From the NCBI GenBank assembly GCA_025359205.1, contig JANYHD010000027.1, positions 124,001 to 188,000 of the forward strand: a stretch of 64,000 nucleotides of DNA, given 5' to 3'. The stretch's first letter is position 1. Each line of letters opens with the position of its first letter. This document shows, piece after piece, positions 6,111-27,373 of the stretch. The notes under the pieces are model-generated. The model worked only from the letters and a program-made list of their open reading frames with translations. It searched no databases and was not told the DNA's origin. Position numbers and translations under genes: made by a program. The stretch is from Gammaproteobacteria bacterium (GTDB taxonomy: Bacteria; Pseudomonadota; Gammaproteobacteria; Steroidobacterales; Steroidobacteraceae).

Positions 6111-6677
6111 TTAGTGCAGCGAAACGCCCGGTGGGGGCGGCGCCGGTTGGCGCGTGGCGCCCAGCTCCTCGAACACCACCTGCACGCCGACGCGGACGAA
6201 CTCCACCAGCTCGGCCAGTGCCGCTTCGTTGGCTTCGATCCCTTCGCGCGCGTCGACCCCGGCGCGCATGATCTGCGCCAGGTCGCGCACGATCTCCCCC
6301 GCGTCGCCCGGGAGCTGCTCTGGATCCGCCGCGCCGCTGGTGCCCAGCCCATAGACGAAGCCATTGCACCATAATGTGAGTGCCTCGGTGCGCTGCTCGA
6401 TCGGCGCGTCATCGTCGGGCATCAGCAACTCGAACTGCATCTGCGTGCCCTGGAGCGCGGCGCGCGTGGCATCGTAAAGTTCGCGCAAGGAAGGTACGGC
6501 CGCTACGCCCGGCGCAACGCCCTCAGGCAGGATCTCCGCCAGCCAGTCGTCGAAACCGTAGGCACCGGCGGCGCACAGCGCGCCCGCCAGCGTGCCGTGG
6601 GCCTCGGCGGGTTCAGCGACCGCACGGGAGGCCGCCATCAGGCGCTGGATCTGCTCGTAATTGCTGGAACTGGCCAC
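6111..6677 (-). CDS. ygfB: UPF0149 family protein YgfB
   Basis: This is a 188-residue helical protein of the YgfB/YecA family, starting at GTG (MASSSNYEQIQRLM) with GGAA a few bases upstream. The family hallmark is the helical N-terminal half with AHGTLAGALCA and the FVYGL(G) region with a single functional Cys/Trp cluster (LWCNGFVYGLG). YgfB proteins are small cytosolic proteins; in Pseudomonas a member has been connected to control of cell-wall recycling genes, but in most species the role is unknown. It is the first gene of the ygfB-pepP-ubiH-ubiI operon and diverges from the zapA pair. Confidence 0.85.
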   Translation of the reverse strand: MASSSNYEQIQRLMAASRAVAEPAEAHGTLAGALCAAGAYGFDDWLAEILPEGVAPGVAAVPSLRELYDATRAALQGTQMQFELLMPDDDAPIEQRTEALTLWCNGFVYGLGTSGAADPEQLPGDAGEIVRDLAQIMRAGVDAREGIEANEAALAELVEFVRVGVQVVFEELGATRQPAPPPPGVSLH

Positions 6678-6776
6678 GTGCTTCCGTCAAGCTTGAGAGT
6701 GTGCCCGCTGGCATGGTAGGGCCCGTCCCGGCGGCACGCAACAGGCCACCTACAGCATTAACCTACCGCAATTCGA

Positions 6777-6806
6777 TTGACCGCGCTCGTGGCGCGGAAC
6801 TATAGT
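6777..6806 (+). promoter_or_regulatory. Sigma70-like promoter of the zapB-like/zapA pair, six bases before the ATG
   Basis: TTGACC (6777-6782) and TATAGT (6801-6806) are separated by 18 bases. The ATG of the next gene is at 6813, so transcription starting 6 to 7 bases after the -10 would begin at or next to the A of the ATG. No Shine-Dalgarno sequence can fit. The mRNA is probably leaderless. Confidence 0.65.
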
Positions 6807-6812
6807 TTTCAC

Positions 6813-7046
6813 ATGGCCGACAACGAAAAAAGCAGCGGCGCGGAGCTTGAGCTCAAGCGCCTGGAAATACGCCTCGAAGAACTGATCGCCACCGTGCACC
6901 GCCTCAAGGACGAGAATCGTGCGCTGCGTACGCGCCAGGACAGCCTGGCGAGCGAGAAGACCACGGTGATGAACCGCAGCGAGCAGGTGCGCGCGCGGGT
7001 CGAGGCGATGATCGGCCGCCTCAAGGCCATGGAGCGCACCGCGTGA
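6813..7046 (+). CDS. TIGR02449-type ZapB-like coiled-coil protein
   Basis: The 77-residue product, starting MADNEKSSGAELELK, is one long charged coiled coil (heptads through RLEIRLEELIATVHRLKDEN) with no membrane segment. It fits the short family found next to zapA in gammaproteobacteria, and it resembles ZapB, the division protein that binds ZapA. Its stop overlaps the GTG start of zapA (GTGA), so the two are made together. A partner role with ZapA at the division ring is inferred from size, coiled coil and coupling. A longer frame from 6777 would overlap the promoter and was rejected. Confidence 0.75.
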   Translation: MADNEKSSGAELELKRLEIRLEELIATVHRLKDENRALRTRQDSLASEKTTVMNRSEQVRARVEAMIGRLKAMERTA

Positions 7047-7360
7047 GCGAGGCCGAGGGCACCCGCGTCAGCGTCCGCATCCTCGACAAGGACTATTTCG
7101 TCGCCTGCCCCAAAGAGGAGCGTGGCGACCTGATCGATAGTGCGGCGTTCCTCAATTCCCGCATGAAGGAAATCCGCGACACCGGCAAAGTAGTCGGCGC
7201 GGACCGCATTGCCGTGATGGCCGCCCTGAATATCGCCAATGAAATGCTGCGCCAGCGTGAACGGGATCACGGTTCGCAGAGCGAACTCGGCACCCGCATC
7301 AAGTTGCTGCGCGAGCGCGTCGAAACCGCGCTCCAGAAAGGGCAACAGCTCGATCTTTAG
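7043..7360 (+). CDS. zapA: Cell division protein ZapA
   Basis: ZapA stabilises FtsZ filaments at mid-cell. The 105-residue protein begins at GTG overlapping the upstream stop. It has the N-terminal globular part (VSVRILDKDYFVACPKEER, then LIDSAAFLNSRM) and a C-terminal coiled coil (ALNIANEMLRQRERDH onward), the normal ZapA architecture and length. The 6S RNA gene lies immediately downstream, as in E. coli. Confidence 0.93.
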   Translation: MSEAEGTRVSVRILDKDYFVACPKEERGDLIDSAAFLNSRMKEIRDTGKVVGADRIAVMAALNIANEMLRQRERDHGSQSELGTRIKLLRERVETALQKGQQLDL

Positions 7361-7375
7361 TGTAGAGTCGGGACC

Positions 7376-7563
7376 GCGTCACCTGTGGTGTTCGATAAGC
7401 GGGCTGGGTTACCTCTCGACCCTAAGTTGAAACACCCCGGGATCTGACTTTGCTGGCAGCATTGTGCAGGTCTGCCTTGAGCAGAAAGCCTTACCTGCCG
7501 CAGGAAGTCCCACTTGTTGCTCTGGTCGAGAGCAACGGTTCGCACCGGCATTGCGGGTGACGC
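7376..7563 (+). ncRNA. ssrS: 6S RNA
   Basis: The 188-base segment between zapA and 5-formyl-THF cyclo-ligase occupies the exact genomic position of ssrS in gammaproteobacteria. The ends pair (GCGTCACC at 7376-7383 with GGTGACGC at 7556-7563), giving the closing stem. The conserved element TTCG..AGCGGG appears at 7391-7402. The 3' half holds the typical AGAAAGCCTTACCTGCCG-like segment near 7481. 6S RNA mimics an open promoter and sequesters sigma70 RNA polymerase in stationary phase. The exact ends are inferred from the closing stem. No protein gene is needed here: the in-frame extension of the next gene through this region is not coding. Confidence 0.88.
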
Positions 7564-7589
7564 TTTATTCTCTCGAACGGCGCAATAGC

Positions 7590-8198
7590 GTGACCACGAC
7601 CGCCGTCTCCCAGGCCAGCGCGCGCCGCTCACTGCGGCGCGAGCTTTGGGCGCGCCGCGCCGCAAAGCCGCGCGCCGCGCGCCGCGCGGCCGGCCGCCTC
7701 ATCAGCGCCCACCTGGCACGTGCCCCCTGGTTCCGGCCCGGCATTGCCATCGCGCTGTACCTGTCGCGCGGTTCCGAGGTCGACACGGCAGCGCTCCTCG
7801 CGCTTGCGCGCCGGCGGGGTTGCCGCGTGTACCTGCCGCGAATCACCGACTACGTCGCGCACCGCATGCTGATGGTCCGTGACGGTGGCGCCGGACGGGC
7901 GCTGAACCGCTACCGCATCGCCGAACCGCGCGGCGCCGCCACGCTGCCCGCGCAGGCGTTTGCGCTCGTGCTCATGCCGCTGGTCGGATTCGACGGCAAG
8001 GGCAACCGGCTCGGCAATGGTGCGGGCTATTACGACAGGTTCGTTGCTGACAGGCGTGGTCGGTATGGGAAACCTCTACTGATAGGCATCGCGTTCGAGT
8101 GCCAGCGCCTCGATGCACTCCCCTCCGCCGCGCATGACGTGCCGCTCGACGGCGTGATCACCGAGCGCGGCCTCCAATATTTCCAGCGGAGGTCCTGA
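7590..8198 (+). CDS. 5-formyltetrahydrofolate cyclo-ligase
   Basis: This enzyme converts 5-formyl-THF to 5,10-methenyl-THF using ATP. The substrate/ATP motif GNRLGNGAGYYDRF is present near residue 150. The N-terminus is strongly basic ([23 protein letters not shown]), as is usual for the family's first helix. I chose the GTG at 7590 (VTTTAVSQAS); the frame stays open upstream to 7464, but that part is 6S RNA. The gene is the ygfA counterpart and is commonly cotranscribed with 6S RNA. Confidence 0.88.
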   Translation: MTTTAVSQASARRSLRRELWARRAAKPRAARRAAGRLISAHLARAPWFRPGIAIALYLSRGSEVDTAALLALARRRGCRVYLPRITDYVAHRMLMVRDGGAGRALNRYRIAEPRGAATLPAQAFALVLMPLVGFDGKGNRLGNGAGYYDRFVADRRGRYGKPLLIGIAFECQRLDALPSAAHDVPLDGVITERGLQYFQRRS

Positions 8199-17345: not shown

Positions 17346-18380
17346 TTGACCGAGCCAAGAATCAGCCGCAGGAGCGTGATGCAGGGGGCCCTGGCGGCCG
17401 CGTTGCCGGCGAGCCTGCTCTCCTGTGCCGGCGGCAAGGACACGCTGCAGGCACTGCAGGTGGGCGGCCTGCCCGTGACCTGCAACCTTACGCTGCCGGT
17501 CGCCTGCGTCGCGCGCGCGACCCGCAACGCCGCCGACAAGTCCGGCGCTCCGCAGTTCGCGTACGAGTACAGCAAGTACAGCGGCTGGCCCGAAATGAAG
17601 GAATCGCTGATGGCCGGCCGCATCCAGGCCGCTTACATGCTCGCGCCGCTGGTCATGGACCTGACCGACAAGAAGATCCCGGTGAAGATCGTCTCGCTCG
17701 GCCATCGTTCGGGCGCGGTGATCATGGTGCGCACCGATTCCCCGTATCAGCATTTCGCGCAGCTGGCCGGCAAGCGCATCGCCATCCCCAGCCGCTTTGC
17801 CGTCGACTTCCTGTTCCTGCGCAAGATGCTGGCTCGGGAAAACATGACGCCGGCCGACGTTCAGGTCGTGGAAATGCCGCCGCCCGATATGCCGGCGGCG
17901 CTGTACGCCAACGCGGTCGACGCCTACTGCACCGGCGAGCCCTTCGGCGCAGCAGCGCAGCGCGCCGGTTATGCGCGCCCGCTGCGCATGACGCGCGACG
18001 AGTGGCGCAACTACATCTGCTGCGTGTTGACCGTGCGCGAGGAACTCATCGCCTCGAACCGGCCGCTGGTGCAGGACCTGGTGAGCATGATCCTCGGCGC
18101 CGGTATCTGGCTCGACGCCGCGCAGGGCAACCGCAACAAGGCGGTTGCCATCGCCTGCGGGAAGAAATTCTTCAACCAGGACCCGAAGATCCTGCAGTTC
18201 GTCATGGACAACCCGACCGATCGCGTCACCTACGGCGACCTGCGCATGATCCGCGCGGAATTCGACGAGTTGATGGAGCTGTCGATGGCGGCGGGCACGA
18301 TCAAGCATCCGATCCCGTACGAGCAGTACGTTGATCCGAGCTTCGCTACGGCCGCCACGCCGGCGGCGATTCCGCTTTAG
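17346..18380 (+). CDS. ABC substrate-binding lipoprotein, NrtA/TauA-like, with Tat signal
   Basis: This is the periplasmic solute-binding component of an ABC importer. The product starts at TTG (17346) with GGAGAG upstream. Residues 7-13 (SRRSVMQ) form a twin-arginine motif and L24-C27 (LLSC) a lipobox, so it is predicted to be a Tat-exported lipoprotein. The body is of the NMT1/nitrate-sulfonate-taurine type, with AGRIQAAYMLAPLVMDL, RIAIPSRFAVDFLFLRKML and AVDAYCTGEPFGAAAQRAG. The ligand cannot be named. It heads a five-gene operon with a Sco protein, a cupredoxin, a permease and an ATPase, which suggests a link between the transported compound and copper. Confidence 0.85.
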   Translation: MTEPRISRRSVMQGALAAALPASLLSCAGGKDTLQALQVGGLPVTCNLTLPVACVARATRNAADKSGAPQFAYEYSKYSGWPEMKESLMAGRIQAAYMLAPLVMDLTDKKIPVKIVSLGHRSGAVIMVRTDSPYQHFAQLAGKRIAIPSRFAVDFLFLRKMLARENMTPADVQVVEMPPPDMPAALYANAVDAYCTGEPFGAAAQRAGYARPLRMTRDEWRNYICCVLTVREELIASNRPLVQDLVSMILGAGIWLDAAQGNRNKAVAIACGKKFFNQDPKILQFVMDNPTDRVTYGDLRMIRAEFDELMELSMAAGTIKHPIPYEQYVDPSFATAATPAAIPL

Positions 18381-18389
18381 GGCCAGCGC

Positions 18390-18965
18390 ATGCTCCGCTA
18401 TTTCGGCTGCGTGCTCGCCCTGCTGGCCAGCGCAGCGGTGCAGGCCGCCGCGGGCGGCGACTTCATCGCTGGCGTGTTCACGCCGGCGCGCGCCGCGCCC
18501 GATTTTTCCTTGCGCGGGTCGGATGGCAACACGCTGCAGCTGGGCCACTACCGCGGCAACGTGGTGCTGCTCGCCTTCGGCTACACCTCCTGCCACGAAG
18601 TGTGCCCGGTGACGCTGTCATTGCTGGCGCAGGCGCGCCGCAAGCTCGGCGCGGCCGCGGCCGACGTGCAGGTGGTGTACGTCACTGTCGACCCCGAGCG
18701 CGACGACGCGGCGCGGATGCACCAGTTCCTCGCGCTCTTCGATCGCAGTTTCATGGGCGCCACGGGCCAGCCCGCTGAGCTTGCTGGCGTGCGCAAGGCC
18801 TACGGCATAACGGCCACACGCCACGCAACGGCCGAGGGCTACGTCATCGCGCACTCGTCCTTCGTTTACCTGATCGATCGCCAGGGCCTGCTGCGGGCGC
18901 TGATGCCCTTCGGCCACGGCGTCGACGATTTCGTCCACGATCTGAAACTGCTGCTCGCGCAATGA
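18390..18965 (+). CDS. SCO1/SenC family copper chaperone/thiol protein
   Basis: This thioredoxin-fold periplasmic protein of 191 residues has a cleavable-looking signal peptide (1 to about 21, LLASAAVQAAAG). The copper-binding set is complete: C68 and C72 in TSCHEVCP, and H155 in AHSSFVYLID. Sco proteins deliver copper to the CuA site of cytochrome oxidase or reduce cysteines in copper proteins. No oxidase gene is nearby. The neighbour is a cupredoxin, so delivery of copper to that protein is a plausible job. The start lies nine bases after the substrate-binding gene. Confidence 0.92.
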   Translation: MLRYFGCVLALLASAAVQAAAGGDFIAGVFTPARAAPDFSLRGSDGNTLQLGHYRGNVVLLAFGYTSCHEVCPVTLSLLAQARRKLGAAAADVQVVYVTVDPERDDAARMHQFLALFDRSFMGATGQPAELAGVRKAYGITATRHATAEGYVIAHSSFVYLIDRQGLLRALMPFGHGVDDFVHDLKLLLAQ

Positions 18966-18975
18966 CCGGAGGTCA

Positions 18976-19431
18976 ATGACAAGCGCAGGCCGTACGGGGT
19001 TCGCCCCGCGCCACTGGGCATTGCTGGCGCTGGCGTCCTTGGCCGTTGCGGGGCTCGCGTGGACCGCATTCACCCCGATCCGCTCCACCACCCGCGACCA
19101 GCTGTTCGAGATCCCCAAGGGCACCTGGGCACGGCGCATGGCGGGCAACAAGGTCGAAATCCTACCCTCCGAGCTGCGCTTGACGCTGGGGGTGCGGGAC
19201 GTGCTGGTGCTGCATAATCTGGACGACGTGCCGCAGCAGTTCGGGCCGATTCTGCTGATGCCCGGGCAGAGTTTTCGGCTACCATTTGCGATGGCTGCCA
19301 GCTACCAGTTCGCCTGCACCGCCCACGCCAGCGGGCAGATGTCCATCGTCGTGGAACCGAACCCGGCCTCGCCATGGGCCAGGGTCCGCTGGCGGTTCAG
19401 CACGTTCCTGAGGTCGGGTCAGTGGTCATGA
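18976..19431 (+). CDS. Membrane-anchored cupredoxin (plastocyanin-like type 1 copper site)
   Basis: The 151-residue protein has one N-terminal transmembrane anchor (about 14-32, ALLALASLAVAGLAW) and a periplasmic beta domain. The four type 1 copper ligands are in place: H80 (LHN), C114, H117 and M122 in CTAHASGQM, with the C-x2-H-x4-M spacing of plastocyanin. GGAGGTCA lies just before the ATG. The stop overlaps the permease ATG (ATGA). An electron-transfer or copper-carrier role is inferred. Together with the adjacent Sco gene this makes a two-protein copper pair inside an ABC importer operon, which I do not recognise as a described system. Confidence 0.85.
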   Translation: MTSAGRTGFAPRHWALLALASLAVAGLAWTAFTPIRSTTRDQLFEIPKGTWARRMAGNKVEILPSELRLTLGVRDVLVLHNLDDVPQQFGPILLMPGQSFRLPFAMAASYQFACTAHASGQMSIVVEPNPASPWARVRWRFSTFLRSGQWS

Positions 19432-20195
19432 AACAGTCTGCGCTCACGAAGAAGGTGCTGCCCTCGCTCCTGGTGGCAACGTTCCTGGTTACGCTGTGGT
19501 GGCTGCTGGTCGTGACGACCCGCAGCGTGATCTTCCCCACGCCCTGGCAGGTGCTCATGGCGATGGCCGAGCTGGTGCGCGACGGCACCCTCTGGGGGCA
19601 CATTGGCGCCTCGCTGATGCGCGTGGGCACGGGCTTCGCACTGGCGGTGGCGTTCGCCATCCCGCTCGGACTGTGGATGGGCTGGGTGCAGGGCGCCTAC
19701 GCCACCCTCAATCCGATCTTCCAGATCCTGCGGCCGATCTCGCCGATCGCGTGGATCCCGATCGCCATCCTCTGGTTCGGCGTGGGCAACGAATCGCCCA
19801 TTTTCCTGATCTTCATATCCTCGGTGTTCCCGATGATCGTGCAGACCGTGGCCGGCGTGCACACGATCGAGCGCCGTTACCTGCGCGCGGCCGAGAATTT
19901 CGGCGTCTCGCGCTACACGCTGTTCAGGCAGGTGGTGATCCCGGCGGTGCTGCCGCAGATCATCGTCGGCATGCGCATCGGCCTCGGGGTCGCCTGGCTG
20001 GTGGTGGTCGCGGCCGAGATGATTGCCCTGCACTCGGGTCTGGGCTACCTCATCATCGACTCGCGCAATGCCGGCAACCGCTACGACCTGGTGATTGCCG
20101 GCATGGTCATCATCGGCCTGATCGGCCTGTCGCTCGACGGCGCGATGCGCCTGCTCGAAGGTCACCGCCTCGTCAGGTGGCGCTATGCCCGCTAA
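19428..20195 (+). CDS. ABC transporter permease, nitrate/sulfonate/taurine type
   Basis: This inner-membrane permease is 255 residues with about six helices. The family's coupling loop that meets the ATPase is visible near AENFGVSRYTLFRQVVIPAVLPQIIVG, and the PIAWIPIAILWFGVG segment is typical of SsuC/TauC/NrtB. I chose the ATG at 19428 because it overlaps the cupredoxin stop as ATGA; an upstream extension to 19374 is not needed. Its 3' end overlaps the ATPase gene by 11 bases. Confidence 0.92.
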   Translation: MKQSALTKKVLPSLLVATFLVTLWWLLVVTTRSVIFPTPWQVLMAMAELVRDGTLWGHIGASLMRVGTGFALAVAFAIPLGLWMGWVQGAYATLNPIFQILRPISPIAWIPIAILWFGVGNESPIFLIFISSVFPMIVQTVAGVHTIERRYLRAAENFGVSRYTLFRQVVIPAVLPQIIVGMRIGLGVAWLVVVAAEMIALHSGLGYLIIDSRNAGNRYDLVIAGMVIIGLIGLSLDGAMRLLEGHRLVRWRYAR

Positions 20196-20934
20196 GATCG
20201 TCGTCGACAACATCAGCAAGAGTTTCAGCTCGGAGCAGGGCGCGCTGCCCGTGGTCAGCGGCGTCAGCTTCGACGTCGCCGACGGCGAGGTGGTCGCGCT
20301 GGTCGGGCCTTCCGGCTGCGGCAAGACCACGCTGATGAACATCATCGCCGGTTTCGAAAGGCCCGATGCCGGCTCGATCCGCATAGACGGCGCGGCGCAC
20401 CACAAACCAAGCAAGCAGGGCATCCTGATTTCGCAGCACGGCTCGGTATTTCCCTGGCTGAACGTGCAGCAGAACCTGATGTTCGGGCTCAACGGCCACG
20501 CACACGACGACAAGGAAGGGCTGGCCGATCACTACGCCGCGATGGTCGGGCTGCAGGGTTTCGAGACCAACTATCCGCACGAATTGTCGGGCGGCATGCT
20601 CAAGCGGGCCGAGCTGGCGCGCGCACTGGTGGTCAAGCCCGAGATCCTCTACATGGACGAGCCGTTCTCGGCGCTCGACGCGCTGATGAACCTGCGCATG
20701 CGCAACGAGCTGCTGCGCGTGCTGTCCGAGGAGCGGCATACGGTGCTGCTGATCACACATGACGTCGAGGAAGCGATTCACCTGGCCGACCGCGTGCTGG
20801 TGCTGTCGCCGGCGCCGGCGCAGATCAAGGCCAGCTTCGATGTGTCGCTGGCGCACCCGCGCAAGCTCTCGAGCCGCTACGTGCAGGACTTGCGGGTCGC
20901 CATCCTGCGCGAACTGGGCGTGTACAGCGACTAG
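20185..20934 (+). CDS. ABC transporter ATPase, nitrate/sulfonate/taurine type
   Basis: This 249-residue nucleotide-binding subunit has Walker A GPSGCGKTT (41-49), Q-loop Q84, signature LSGGM (134-138), Walker B ILYMDE (154-159), D-loop SALD and switch H192. The signature continues LKRAELARAL where most relatives have a glutamine before the arginine (xQR), so K140 is a small deviation; the core LSGGM is intact. It should energise the permease upstream. It is the last gene of the operon and converges with pmbA. Confidence 0.93.
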   Translation: MPAKIVVDNISKSFSSEQGALPVVSGVSFDVADGEVVALVGPSGCGKTTLMNIIAGFERPDAGSIRIDGAAHHKPSKQGILISQHGSVFPWLNVQQNLMFGLNGHAHDDKEGLADHYAAMVGLQGFETNYPHELSGGMLKRAELARALVVKPEILYMDEPFSALDALMNLRMRNELLRVLSEERHTVLLITHDVEEAIHLADRVLVLSPAPAQIKASFDVSLAHPRKLSSRYVQDLRVAILRELGVYSD

Positions 20935-20944
20935 CGAGGGCCGG

Positions 20945-22291
20945 CTACTCGCCGGCAATGGTCATGCCCTCGACCACCACCGACCCGCAACGGATCGTGC
21001 CGCGCGTGTCGACGTCGGTGCCCAGCGCGACGATGTTCTGCAGCATCTCGCGCAGGTTGCCGGCGATGGTGATCTCGTGTACCGGATAGGTGAGCGCGCC
21101 CTGCTCCACCCAGAAGCCGCTCGCGCCGCGCGAATAATCGCCGGTGACGCCGTTGACGCCCTGCCCCATCAGCTCGGTCACGTACAGGCCCTCGCCCATG
21201 CGCGCGAGCAGCCCGTCGAAATCAAAGCTGGCGCCCGGTGCGCTCACCAGCAGGTTGTGCACGCCGCCGGCGTTGCCGGTGGTCTTGAGCCCGAGCTTGC
21301 GCGCCGAGTAGCTGCCGAGCACGTAGCCATCGAGCACGCCGTCGTGCACCAGCTCGCGGTCGCGCGTGGCGACGCCCTCCGCGTCGAAGTTGCCGCTCGC
21401 CAATGCGCGCGGCAGGTGCGGACGCTCCTGCATCTGCAGGAACTGCGGGTAGACCTTTGCTCCGGCGGCATCCAGCAGGAACGAAGCGCGCCGGTACTGG
21501 CTCGCACCGCGGATCGCCCCGAGGAAATGCGCGTGCAGGCTGCGCGCCATTTCGGGCGAGAACAGCACCGGCGCGCGGCGCGTGCCCAGTCGCCGGGCGC
21601 CGAGCCGCGCGAGGGCGCGCTCACCGGCGCGGCGGCCGATCTCCGCGGCGCCGACCAGGTCGCCCGTATTGCGCGCCACCGAGTACCAGTGGTCGCGCTG
21701 CATGTCCGAGCCCGACTGCGCCAGCAGGGCGCAACTGAGCGAATGACTGGTGCTGGGGAACCCGGCGAGGAACCCGTGCGTATTGCCGAACACGCGCACG
21801 CCACGATGGGTGCTGAGCGAGGCGCCCTCAGAGTTGGAGAGGCGCGCATCGAGCGCCAGCCCTGCCGCTTCACACTCCCGTGCAATTTCCACCGCCTGCT
21901 CGGGCTCGAGCGCCCAGGGATGATCGAGGTCGAGATCGGGGAATGCGCTGGCCATCGCATCGGCATCGGCAAGCCCGGCGCATTCGTCGCTGGCGGTGTG
22001 ACGCGCGATCGCGCAGGCCTTGCCGACCGTCTGGCTGACGGCCGCAGGACGCAGGTCCGCGGTGCTGGCCGAGCCCTTGCGGTGGCCGAAATAGACGGTC
22101 ACGGCCATGCCGCGGTCGCGGTGATATTCGATGGTTTCGACCTCGCCCATGCGCACGGTGACCGTCAGCCCCTTCTGCAGGCTCGCGTCGGCATCGGCAG
22201 CGCTGGCCCCGGCGGCGCGCGCCTCGGCCAGCGCGCTGCCCACGACCTGCTGCAGTTCCGGAATACGCGTCGCGTCAACTTCGGTGGACAT
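20945..22291 (-). CDS. pmbA: TldE/PmbA modulator protease subunit
   Basis: PmbA (TldE) is the partner of the TldD metallopeptidase; the pair cleaves unfolded peptides such as microcin B17 precursors and the CcdA antitoxin. The 448-residue product (from MSTEVDATRI) lacks the HExxH motif, as expected for TldE, and contains FGNTHGFLAGFPSTSHSLSCALLA and GASGFWVEQGALTYPVHEITIAGNL near the C-terminus. I chose the ATG at 22291; seven extra residues upstream are possible. It diverges from darP, as in E. coli. tldD is at 25.9 kb. Confidence 0.93.
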   Translation of the reverse strand: MSTEVDATRIPELQQVVGSALAEARAAGASAADADASLQKGLTVTVRMGEVETIEYHRDRGMAVTVYFGHRKGSASTADLRPAAVSQTVGKACAIARHTASDECAGLADADAMASAFPDLDLDHPWALEPEQAVEIARECEAAGLALDARLSNSEGASLSTHRGVRVFGNTHGFLAGFPSTSHSLSCALLAQSGSDMQRDHWYSVARNTGDLVGAAEIGRRAGERALARLGARRLGTRRAPVLFSPEMARSLHAHFLGAIRGASQYRRASFLLDAAGAKVYPQFLQMQERPHLPRALASGNFDAEGVATRDRELVHDGVLDGYVLGSYSARKLGLKTTGNAGGVHNLLVSAPGASFDFDGLLARMGEGLYVTELMGQGVNGVTGDYSRGASGFWVEQGALTYPVHEITIAGNLREMLQNIVALGTDVDTRGTIRCGSVVVEGMTIAGE

Positions 22292-22338
22292 GGCAGAATT
22301 GTAACAGCGCAACAGCGCCTGCCCTGACGGATCGGATC

Positions 22339-24312: not shown

Positions 24313-25602
24313 ATGTACCTGGAGCTGTTCAAACTCAAAGAATTGCCGTTCCGGCTGAGCCCAGACCCGGAATTCCTGTACCTGAGCAAGGCCCATGCGC
24401 GCGCCAAGGCGTACATGGAATCCACCATCTGGTTCACCGACGGGTTCGTGGTTATCACCGGCGAAATCGGCTCGGGCAAGACCACGCTGATCGAATCCTT
24501 CGTGAGTGAACTGTCGACCGACGTGGTGGTCGCGCAGATCAGCCAGACGCAGGTCTCGGCGATCGAGTTCCTGCAGGCGGTGCTGGTGCAGTTCGGTTTT
24601 ACGCCCTTCCAGATGAAGAAGGCCGAGCTGCTCGCGACGCTCAACCGCTACCTCGCCGAGCAGTACGACGCGAACCGCAAGGTGCTGCTGATCGTCGACG
24701 AGGCGCAGAACCTCGGCGCGCGTGTGCTCGAGGAGATCCGCATGCTCTCCGGCATCGACAACAGCAAGGAGAAGATCCTCAGGATCATCCTTGCCGGCCA
24801 GCCGGAGCTGAACGCCAAGCTCGACGCGCCGGAGCTGGTGCAGCTGGTGCAGCGCGTGCGCCTGCGCTTTCACCTCACGGCGCTCAGCAGCGATGACACG
24901 AAGGCCTATGTGCTGCATCGCCTGGAAGTGGCCGACTCACAAGGCCGCGAGATCTTCCAGCCCGAGTGCTACGCCGAGATCGTCCGCTACACGGGTGGCG
25001 TGCCACGGCTGATCAACACACTGTGCGACACCGCGATGCTGGCCGCCGGCAACGCCGAGCGCGACCAGGTGTCGGCGGCCGACATCCACGCAGCGGTCGA
25101 AGAATTGCAGTGGGTCGAGTTCGCGCACCGCCCGAGCGCAAGCGTCGGCCGCGCCTCGACGCCGCTGCGAACATCATCGGCGCAGCAGCGCGAGCGCACG
25201 CTGGATACTCCCGCCGGCACGCCGCTGGCGCGCTTGCTGGTCATGAGTCGCGGGCGCACGGTCAGCGAGCGTGGCCTCTACCCCGGCCGGCTGATCATCG
25301 GTCGCGCCTCGGACGCCGACCTGCGCGTCGAGAGCCCGGTGATCAGCCGCCACCACTGTCAGATTGTCACCAGCGAGCGGCTGTGCGTGCTGGAAGATCT
25401 CAACAGCAGCAACGGCGTTTACCTGATGAACCAGCGGGTGCGCCGGCACAACCTCAACGACGGCGACGTCGTCTCGCTGGGCTCGCACCAGCTCATGTAC
25501 ATCGATGAGCGTCCCGGCACGCGCCTGGGCGCCGAGGATGACAGCGCGAGCACCGGCTCGCACCCGTGCCCTGCCACGGCCGGCGAGGCCACGCAGAACT
25601 GA
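24313..25602 (+). CDS. GspA/ExeA-like AAA ATPase fused to an FHA domain
   Basis: Residues 1 to about 270 form an ExeA/GspA-type AAA+ ATPase: Walker A GEIGSGKTTL (50-59), Walker B VLLIVDEAQN (124-133), and the sensor region IILAGQPELNAKL. Residues about 300 to 398 form a forkhead-associated domain: GRLIIGRASDADLRVESPVISRHHC with LNSSNGVYL. FHA domains bind phosphothreonine. Usual GspA proteins carry a membrane helix and peptidoglycan-binding domain at this end; here there is neither, so this looks cytosolic and possibly tied to Ser/Thr phosphorylation. No type II secretion genes are near. GGAGACC precedes the start. Confidence 0.85.
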   Translation: MYLELFKLKELPFRLSPDPEFLYLSKAHARAKAYMESTIWFTDGFVVITGEIGSGKTTLIESFVSELSTDVVVAQISQTQVSAIEFLQAVLVQFGFTPFQMKKAELLATLNRYLAEQYDANRKVLLIVDEAQNLGARVLEEIRMLSGIDNSKEKILRIILAGQPELNAKLDAPELVQLVQRVRLRFHLTALSSDDTKAYVLHRLEVADSQGREIFQPECYAEIVRYTGGVPRLINTLCDTAMLAAGNAERDQVSAADIHAAVEELQWVEFAHRPSASVGRASTPLRTSSAQQRERTLDTPAGTPLARLLVMSRGRTVSERGLYPGRLIIGRASDADLRVESPVISRHHCQIVTSERLCVLEDLNSSNGVYLMNQRVRRHNLNDGDVVSLGSHQLMYIDERPGTRLGAEDDSASTGSHPCPATAGEATQN

Positions 25603-25891: not shown

Positions 25892-27373
25892 TCAGGCCGT
25901 GCCGCCGACAGTGAGCGCATCGACGCGCAACGTGGGCTGCCCCACGCCCACCGGCACGCTTTGTCCTTCCTTGCCGCACGTGCCGACGCCCGCATCGAGC
26001 CTGAGATCGTTGCCCACCATGGCGACACGTGTGAGCACGTCCGGGCCGTTACCGATCAGCGTGGCGCCCTTGATCGGCGCACCGAGCCTGCCGTTCTCGA
26101 TCAGGTAGGCCTCGCTGACCGAAAACACGAACTTGCCGGAAGTGATGTCGACCTGGCCGCCGCCGAAGTTCACGGCGTAAATACCGCGCTCAACCGAACG
26201 GATGATCTCCTCGGGTGCGTAGGGGCCTGCCAGCATGTAGGTATTGGTCATGCGCGGCAGCGTGAGATGCGCGAAGGACTCGCGCCGCCCGTTGCCGGTG
26301 GACGCCACGCCCACGAGCCGTGCATTCAGGCGGTCCTGCAGGTAGCCGCGCAGGATCCCGTCCTCGATCAACGTCGTGCACTGTGTCGGGGTGCCTTCAT
26401 CGTCGATGTTCAGCGAACCGCGGCGGCCCGCGAGCGTGCCATCATCGACGACCGTGCAGCCGGGGCTCGCCACGCGCTCGCCAATACGGCCGCTGAACGC
26501 CGAGGTGCCCTTGCGGTTGAAATCGCCCTCGAGCCCGTGGCCGATGGCCTCGTGCAGCAGGATGCCGGGCCAGCCAGGGCCGAGCACCACGGTCATGGTG
26601 CCGGCCGGTGCGCTTACGGCCTCGAGGTTCACCAGCGCCTGGCGCACGGCCTCGCGTGCGAGTTCGAGCGGCCGTTCCCCGGCGACCAGCTCGGCCAGCG
26701 TGTAGCGGCCGCCAGCGCCAGCGTAACCCTGTTCGCGCCGGCCGTTCTGCTCGACGATCACCGAGACATTCATGCGCACCAACGGCCGCACGTCGGCGGC
26801 GAGCGCTCCATCGCTGGTGGCGATGAGGATCGTTTCGTGCACGGCGTGCAGGCTCGCCATCACGCGCACGACGCGCGGATCGAGCTTGCGCGTCTCGCGA
26901 TCGACGCGTTCCAGGCAGGCAACCTTCTGTTCGTCGCCGAGGCTCAACAGTGGATCAACGGGCTGGTAGAGCTGGTGACCGGCCACGCGATGCCAGGCCT
27001 GCAGCGTGCCGCTCGCGCCGCGCCCGGCGATGGCGCGCGCGGCACGCGCCGCTTCCTCAAGCGCCTGCGGCAAGATCTCGTCGGAGTAGGCGAAGCCGGT
27101 GCGCTCGCCGGCCATGGCGCGCACGCCCACACCTTGCTCGATGCTGGCGCTGCCTTCCTTGACGATGCCGTCCTCAAGCGACCAGGACTCCTCCTGGGAT
27201 GCCTGGAAATACAGGTCTGCGGCGTCGATCTTCGCGCCGAGCGCCAGGTCGAGCGCCTGCGCAAGCAGGCCCTGGTCGAGGCCACCCGGTGCCAGCAGTG
27301 CCTGCTGCGCGAGCTGCAGGGTCTCGCTACCGCCCGTTGCGATTGCCGCGTTGGTCGTGACGGTGCTGCTCAT
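25892..27373 (-). CDS. tldD: TldD metallopeptidase subunit
   Basis: TldD is the catalytic half of the TldD/TldE protease. The 493-residue protein contains the zinc motif HEAIGH in [17 protein letters not shown] and the conserved C-terminal block [25 protein letters not shown]. It is the fifth gene in a co-directional run maf-rng-nit-tldD-small membrane protein. In E. coli tldD likewise lies near rng and maf (yhdE). Confidence 0.95.

Follow-up and report, generated by a model that had tools for sequence, protein, structure and literature searches.

A recurrent five-gene cassette combining an ABC importer, a Sco protein and an unusual cupredoxin as a candidate for copper import

We analysed a 64,000-nucleotide stretch of DNA (hereafter the window) from a Gammaproteobacteria bacterium of the family Steroidobacteraceae (assembly GCA_025359205.1, contig JANYHD010000027.1, positions 124,001 to 188,000). 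Positions 17346 to 20934 of the window hold five genes that unite an ATP-binding cassette (ABC) importer with a Sco protein and a membrane-anchored cupredoxin. The cassette is genuine and, within the literature searched, undescribed. We give a probability of roughly 40% to the reading that it is an importer of the NitT/TauT fold whose cargo is a metal, most likely copper in the form of Cu(I) or a small complex, and which works with Sco and a chaperone-type cupredoxin. An earlier note, made from the DNA alone, had not recognised the set as a described system, and a literature search, weak on subscription journals, likewise gave no description.

Bacterial inner-membrane copper uptake has been studied in only a few cases, namely carriers of the CcoA type from the major facilitator superfamily, CopD/YcnJ and chalkophore routes (PMC7558416). 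No inner-membrane ABC importer for copper was found in the portions of the copper-uptake literature that were accessible. A recurrent cassette of this composition is a concrete and testable candidate for copper import.

Organization and recurrence of the cassette

All five genes lie on the forward strand. The first (17346–18380), with a TTG start and a twin-arginine signal, encodes a substrate-binding protein (SBP) of the NMT1_2 family. It is followed by genes for a Sco protein (18390–18965), with conserved CxxxCP and histidine ligands and a signal peptide that lacks a lipobox, and for a cupredoxin (18976–19431) with an N-terminal membrane helix. A permease similar to TauC, NrtB and SaoP (19428–20195) and an ATPase similar to SaoA, TauB and NrtD (20185–20934) complete the set. 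The coordinates proposed earlier for a single operon were borne out: intergenic gaps of 9 and 10 bases separate the first three genes, and the next two junctions overlap by 4 and 11 bases. Pfam domains were found in the SBP (NMT1_2), Sco (SCO1-SenC), the permease (BPD_transp_1) and the ATPase (ABC_tran), and a Pfam search gave no match for the cupredoxin. With an NMT1-fold SBP, a BPD_transp_1 permease and an ABC_tran ATPase in one operon, the transporter belongs to the NitT/TauT class, and the SCO1-SenC domain, CxxxCP motif and downstream histidine place the second protein in the Sco/SenC family.

A scan by SBP similarity, using one genome per species, retrieved 80 loci at 68–89% identity. All five genes were present in the same order and orientation in 73 of them, and in the remaining seven the contig ended 2 to 163 bases past the last gene found. 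The gene order is therefore not unique to this genome, and its constancy across 73 complete cassettes both agrees with a single operon and makes the association more than chance. The carriers, many of them bacteria of soil and water, are Steroidobacter-like gammaproteobacteria, Burkholderiales and Cellvibrio; among the genera are Roseateles/Pelomonas, Rhizobacter, Aquabacterium, Massilia, Duganella, Rugamonas and Steroidobacter. Metagenome-assembled genomes (MAGs) labelled Acidobacteria and Polyangiaceae carry it as well, two labels for which binning error is possible. The SBP occurs in 8 of 15 genomes of the window's own genus, a close copy in one of 22 genomes from other genera of the host family and, in a phylum-wide sample of 398 genomes, only in the window's own genome. 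These counts indicate a patchy distribution; the cassette is self-contained and horizontally patchy.

All-against-all clustering of flanking frames revealed no further gene shared across the loci, the nearest genes differing by lineage, and counts of upstream 8-mers yielded no motif shared beyond related genera. No CODH (carbon monoxide dehydrogenase) gene adjoins the cassette in the window and flanks examined. In one locus (L027), an Alginate_exp-type porin gene (6375–8006) stands between the cupredoxin and permease genes, and a gene resembling flavin-dependent halogenases lies downstream. That locus comes from a MAG contig of poor quality, its frames broken and its permease and ATPase genes divergent, and the porin was set aside as a sixth member.

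Sco is a classical cytochrome oxidase factor. The cassette might accordingly deliver copper to a cuproenzyme of the periplasm or membrane whose gene lies elsewhere, as a variant of cytochrome oxidase assembly in which the ABC part moves copper or an accessory compound; the genome holds one COX2 and three Sco genes. However, no fixed linkage to cytochrome oxidase was seen in the loci inspected, where the cassette does not stand beside oxidase genes, and most members of the host family lack it, so that it does not serve oxidases in general. We regard delivery to a distant cuproenzyme as very improbable.

Kinship of the ABC transporter

The SBP, permease and ATPase all score under the curated NCBIfam cut-offs, including those of sulfonate, taurine and nitrate systems. 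Among NCBIfam models, the permease and ATPase score best against the SAO (Sec-assisted organometallic) system, with 204 of the 360 bits required for SaoA and 189 of 295 for SaoP; the SBP reaches 41 of 300 for SaoX. The nearest solved protein to the SBP is 3UN6 from S. aureus, deposited with zinc (profile E-value 1e-38, the next being of NrtC type at 1e-12), which is also its top structural match. The wider fold-family matches include nitrate, bicarbonate, sulfonate, taurine and thiamine-precursor proteins.

In a tree whose long branches leave the deeper order unsure, the 16 cassette SBPs group together as a single long-branched clade (100/100). The SBP linked to CODH in R. albus groups with 3UN6 (100/99), the separation of E. 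coli TauA and SsuA has support of 98/98, and these two and the NrtC domain all lie outside the cassette clade. The SBP thus does not belong to a clade of characterised nitrate, taurine or sulfonate proteins, and neither of the two outcomes that the earlier note had named as refuting was seen.

Relatives of the SBP, permease and ATPase (31, 44 and 40% identity) precede CooC-CooS in locus L173, and the order on an R. albus plasmid is SBP-permease-ATPase-cooS. Inoue and colleagues described this ABC system linked to clade B CODH, pointed out that 3UN6 is homologous to its binding protein and suggested that the system takes up a metal, nickel for example (PMC6344411). A second, more distant SBP branch stands with genes resembling acyl-CoA dehydrogenases and with OsmC genes. 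In two sets on plasmids of Methylocystis and Marinobacter (L177, L178), the order ATPase-SBP-permease-OsmC-acyl-CoA-dehydrogenase lies near formaldehyde genes (fae and a glutathione-dependent formaldehyde dehydrogenase). A third branch stands with a HAMP/chemotaxis-like sensor. SBP relatives in L114 (genome G164), L115 (6534–7547; G188) and L116 (3451–4500; G148) have no ABC genes and precede a sensor gene of this type and a small gene similar to NADPH-dependent reductases, which suggests that they serve sensing.

Residues of the substrate-binding protein

The SBP had been called a lipoprotein. This agrees with the LLSC motif of the window's own protein but does not extend to the clade, in which a lipobox-like motif occurs in only 14 of 81 members and the twin-arginine pair in all 81. 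Six residues, C46, H120, D154, C195, C225 and C226, are invariant in the cassette clade (81/81 for C46, C195, C225 and C226), and C54 is present in 79 of 81 members. We compared the cassette SBPs with twelve near relatives. C46 stands where the relatives carry aspartate or histidine, and C54 where they mostly carry histidine. D154 replaces a histidine invariant in the twelve relatives, TauA and SsuA. Y223 replaces what is mostly histidine, and C195, T196 and G197 occupy positions with mostly I/C/S, V and A in the relatives. H120 and the C225/C226 pair are common to both groups. If the relatives hold a metal through histidine and aspartate, the shift to cysteine would suit Cu(I).

The fold family and the distant relatives bear on another explanation, import of an organic or sulfur- or nitrogen-containing anion (a sulfonate, a nitrate-like ion or an organosulfur compound) that depends on copper for its handling in the periplasm, or for which the SBP cysteines need thiol reduction of the Sco type. 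Known members of the fold do carry nitrate, bicarbonate, sulfonate, taurine and thiamine precursors, and neighbours such as acyl-CoA-dehydrogenase-like and OsmC genes are typical of organosulfur use. Nevertheless, no oxygenase, reductase or assimilation gene was found to travel with the cassette by flank clustering or in the inspected neighbourhoods, the transporter misses all the relevant family cut-offs, and the histidine shared with TauA and SsuA has become aspartate. Anion import therefore seems rather unlikely.

Sco and the cupredoxin

The earlier note had all copper ligands intact, and for Sco this stood, C68, C72 and H155 being kept in 78 of 79 cassette proteins. All 78 cassette cupredoxins keep C114 and H117, and 75 of them have M122, with leucine in the other three, but the proposed ligand H80 failed: its column holds arginine in 55, lysine in 16 and histidine in 4 of 78 (Arg/Lys in 71). 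The claim of a complete ligand set falls with it, as does a normal blue-copper site, and at this position the cupredoxin does not resemble plastocyanin. Judging from the motif N-x-D-x-V-P-Q-x-F, the counterpart of plastocyanin His37 is most likely Q87, a column of 77 glutamines and a single histidine. Aligned by profile with amicyanin and poplar plastocyanin, for which approximate query sequences were used, the cupredoxin matched in the Cys-His loop, and the alignment did not fix the position of the first histidine. Given a near-invariant glutamine at this place, the predicted ligand set is not that of a standard type-1 copper site: the cupredoxin fold is present, and the combination of two histidines, a cysteine and an axial ligand is not.

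The AlphaFold model of the cupredoxin, built from 39 sequences, has a mean predicted local distance difference test (pLDDT) score of 93 and shows a cupredoxin fold behind a helix at residues 11–32, with a C-terminal helix at 133–147. The best solved matches are the Nitrosopumilus purple cupredoxin (Z 9.2) and amicyanin (Z about 8); EfeO (Z 7.2), FtrB (Z 7.1) and CupA (Z 6.4) also match.

Matches to EfeO and FtrB raise the alternative that the cassette imports some other metal, such as iron, nickel or cobalt, by a redox-coupled route in which a copper-cupredoxin loaded by Sco oxidises the metal beside the permease. The cupredoxin FtrB has been proposed to act in this way next to the permease of FtrABCD (PMC11966278), and the ABC relatives sit with nickel CODH genes. 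The fold scores are middling, however, the cassette has no FTR1-type permease, the pocket changes go towards cysteine, and loss of the usual first histidine disfavours a redox site. Taken together, these observations leave such an importer with a low probability, below that of anion import.

Orphan cupredoxins in Oxalobacteraceae

We surveyed 245 Oxalobacteraceae genomes for the cassette SBP and cupredoxin. The SBP was found in 25, a 26th match (G522) being the CODH-linked relative. The cupredoxin accompanied it in 24 of the 25, the exception (G465) being an assembly of 80% completeness that holds a fragment of the SBP. About twenty further genomes contained the cupredoxin without the SBP, several with a second orphan copy. 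Most of the orphan regions read have the cupredoxin between genes for a sensor kinase and a LON-type protein, a site that the cassette itself occupies in L097 and L100.

The metal loop, Cys-His-Met/Leu, is kept in all 78 cassette cupredoxins, whereas its cysteine, histidine and/or methionine have been lost in 12 of the 14 aligned orphans, which share ancestry, so that the broken loops do not count as 12 independent events. The two orphans with intact loops (L160, L161) look recent, and L161 (G459) retains permease and ATPase fragments. Our reading is that the orphans are decayed cassettes, the loop being kept only alongside the remainder of the cassette. From this pattern the metal site and the transporter appear to be selected together.

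The orphans of Massilia-like genomes (L113, 7152–7622; L160–L172) are mostly ligand-less, and most have a CHASE-type kinase gene on one side and a LON-domain gene on the other. Some genomes carry an intact cassette at another site in addition to the orphan, and some orphan frames stay open despite the lost loop and may have a new role.

Proposed function

We infer the substrate, the direction of transport, the order of transfer and the geometry of the pocket. In the metal importer that we favour, the SBP, exported by the twin-arginine route, would take the metal into a pocket in which Cys46 and Asp154 stand for the Asp/His and His of the relatives, with Cys54, His120 and perhaps Cys195 near by in the pocket sequence motifs. 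Sco, a periplasmic copper and thiol-redox protein, would keep the SBP cysteines reduced and/or pass on Cu(I). The membrane-anchored, glutamine-substituted cupredoxin would act by the permease as a copper chaperone or store, not as a normal blue-copper electron carrier, and the permease and ATPase would carry the metal into the cytoplasm. We hold more tentatively to the specific version, a dedicated bacterial ATP-driven copper importer in which the Asp/His metal or anion ligands of the SBP have been exchanged for cysteine and which brings its own Sco and glutamine-substituted membrane cupredoxin. The earlier proposal had tied the transporter to copper, with Sco loading the cupredoxin. Its intact set of cupredoxin ligands does not hold; the tie to copper gains strength from the joint loss of the cupredoxin loop and the transporter and from metal-linked ABC relatives (PMC6344411), and Sco may load the cupredoxin as proposed. 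Import of a copper-dependent organic compound is possible, and is not favoured over metal import.

Several observations weigh against copper import. No known RNA or riboswitch reached gathering score upstream of the cassette in seven loci or in the window, and these upstream and RNA checks found no copper regulator. The C225/C226 pair spans the whole SBP group, including the transporters linked to acyl-CoA dehydrogenases, and by themselves cysteines are therefore no sign of copper. The quality of the SBP model is only moderate (pLDDT 71.6, with residues 178–198 below 50), and the pocket is accordingly read from the sequence. That the CODH-linked systems transport metal is itself hypothetical, and the zinc in 3UN6 may be a crystallisation ion.

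Neighbouring genes in the window

Just downstream of the cassette, genes for PmbA-like and TldD-like proteases (20945–22312 and 25892–27373) surround a purE/purK region and appear, by eye, to be housekeeping. An ATPase of the ExeA/GspA type (24313–25602) is apparently fused to a C-terminal FHA-like domain, also by eye.

Comparison with known systems

NrtABCD, CmpABCD, TauABC and SsuABC share the transporter class and SBP fold of the cassette, but its SBP stands apart from E. coli TauA and SsuA and the NrtC domain, and all curated cut-offs are missed. SaoA, SaoP and SaoX are closer in that SAO models fit the permease and ATPase best and their setting is metal-related; the scores nevertheless fall far under the cut-offs, and SAO partners such as SaoL and SaoT do not travel with the cassette. 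Clusters of thiocyanate dehydrogenase were considered as a known home and rejected, the published clusters, as far as the sources were available, carrying Cus and CopC/CopD and not the five-gene set.

The iron importers FtrABCD and EfeUO also pair a periplasmic protein of cupredoxin fold with a metal permease. There the permease is an oxidase-coupled FTR1 protein, whereas the cassette has an ABC transporter whose BPD_transp_1 permease lies outside the FTR1 family, and the cupredoxin motif differs. CupA of Streptococcus pneumoniae is a Cu(I) chaperone of cupredoxin fold, but its similarity to the cassette protein is low, its ligands are different and it works with an exporter.

The clade B nickel CODH system, with 3UN6, offers a homologous SBP, permease and ATPase in the same relative order and a proposed role in metal import (PMC6344411). 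The cassette differs in having no CooS, in the insertion of Sco and cupredoxin between SBP and permease, in the exchange of pocket Asp/His for cysteine and of His for aspartate, and in its separate SBP clade. It would extend the metal role proposed for the 3UN6/CODH-linked branch within a family usually annotated as nitrate or sulfonate uptake.

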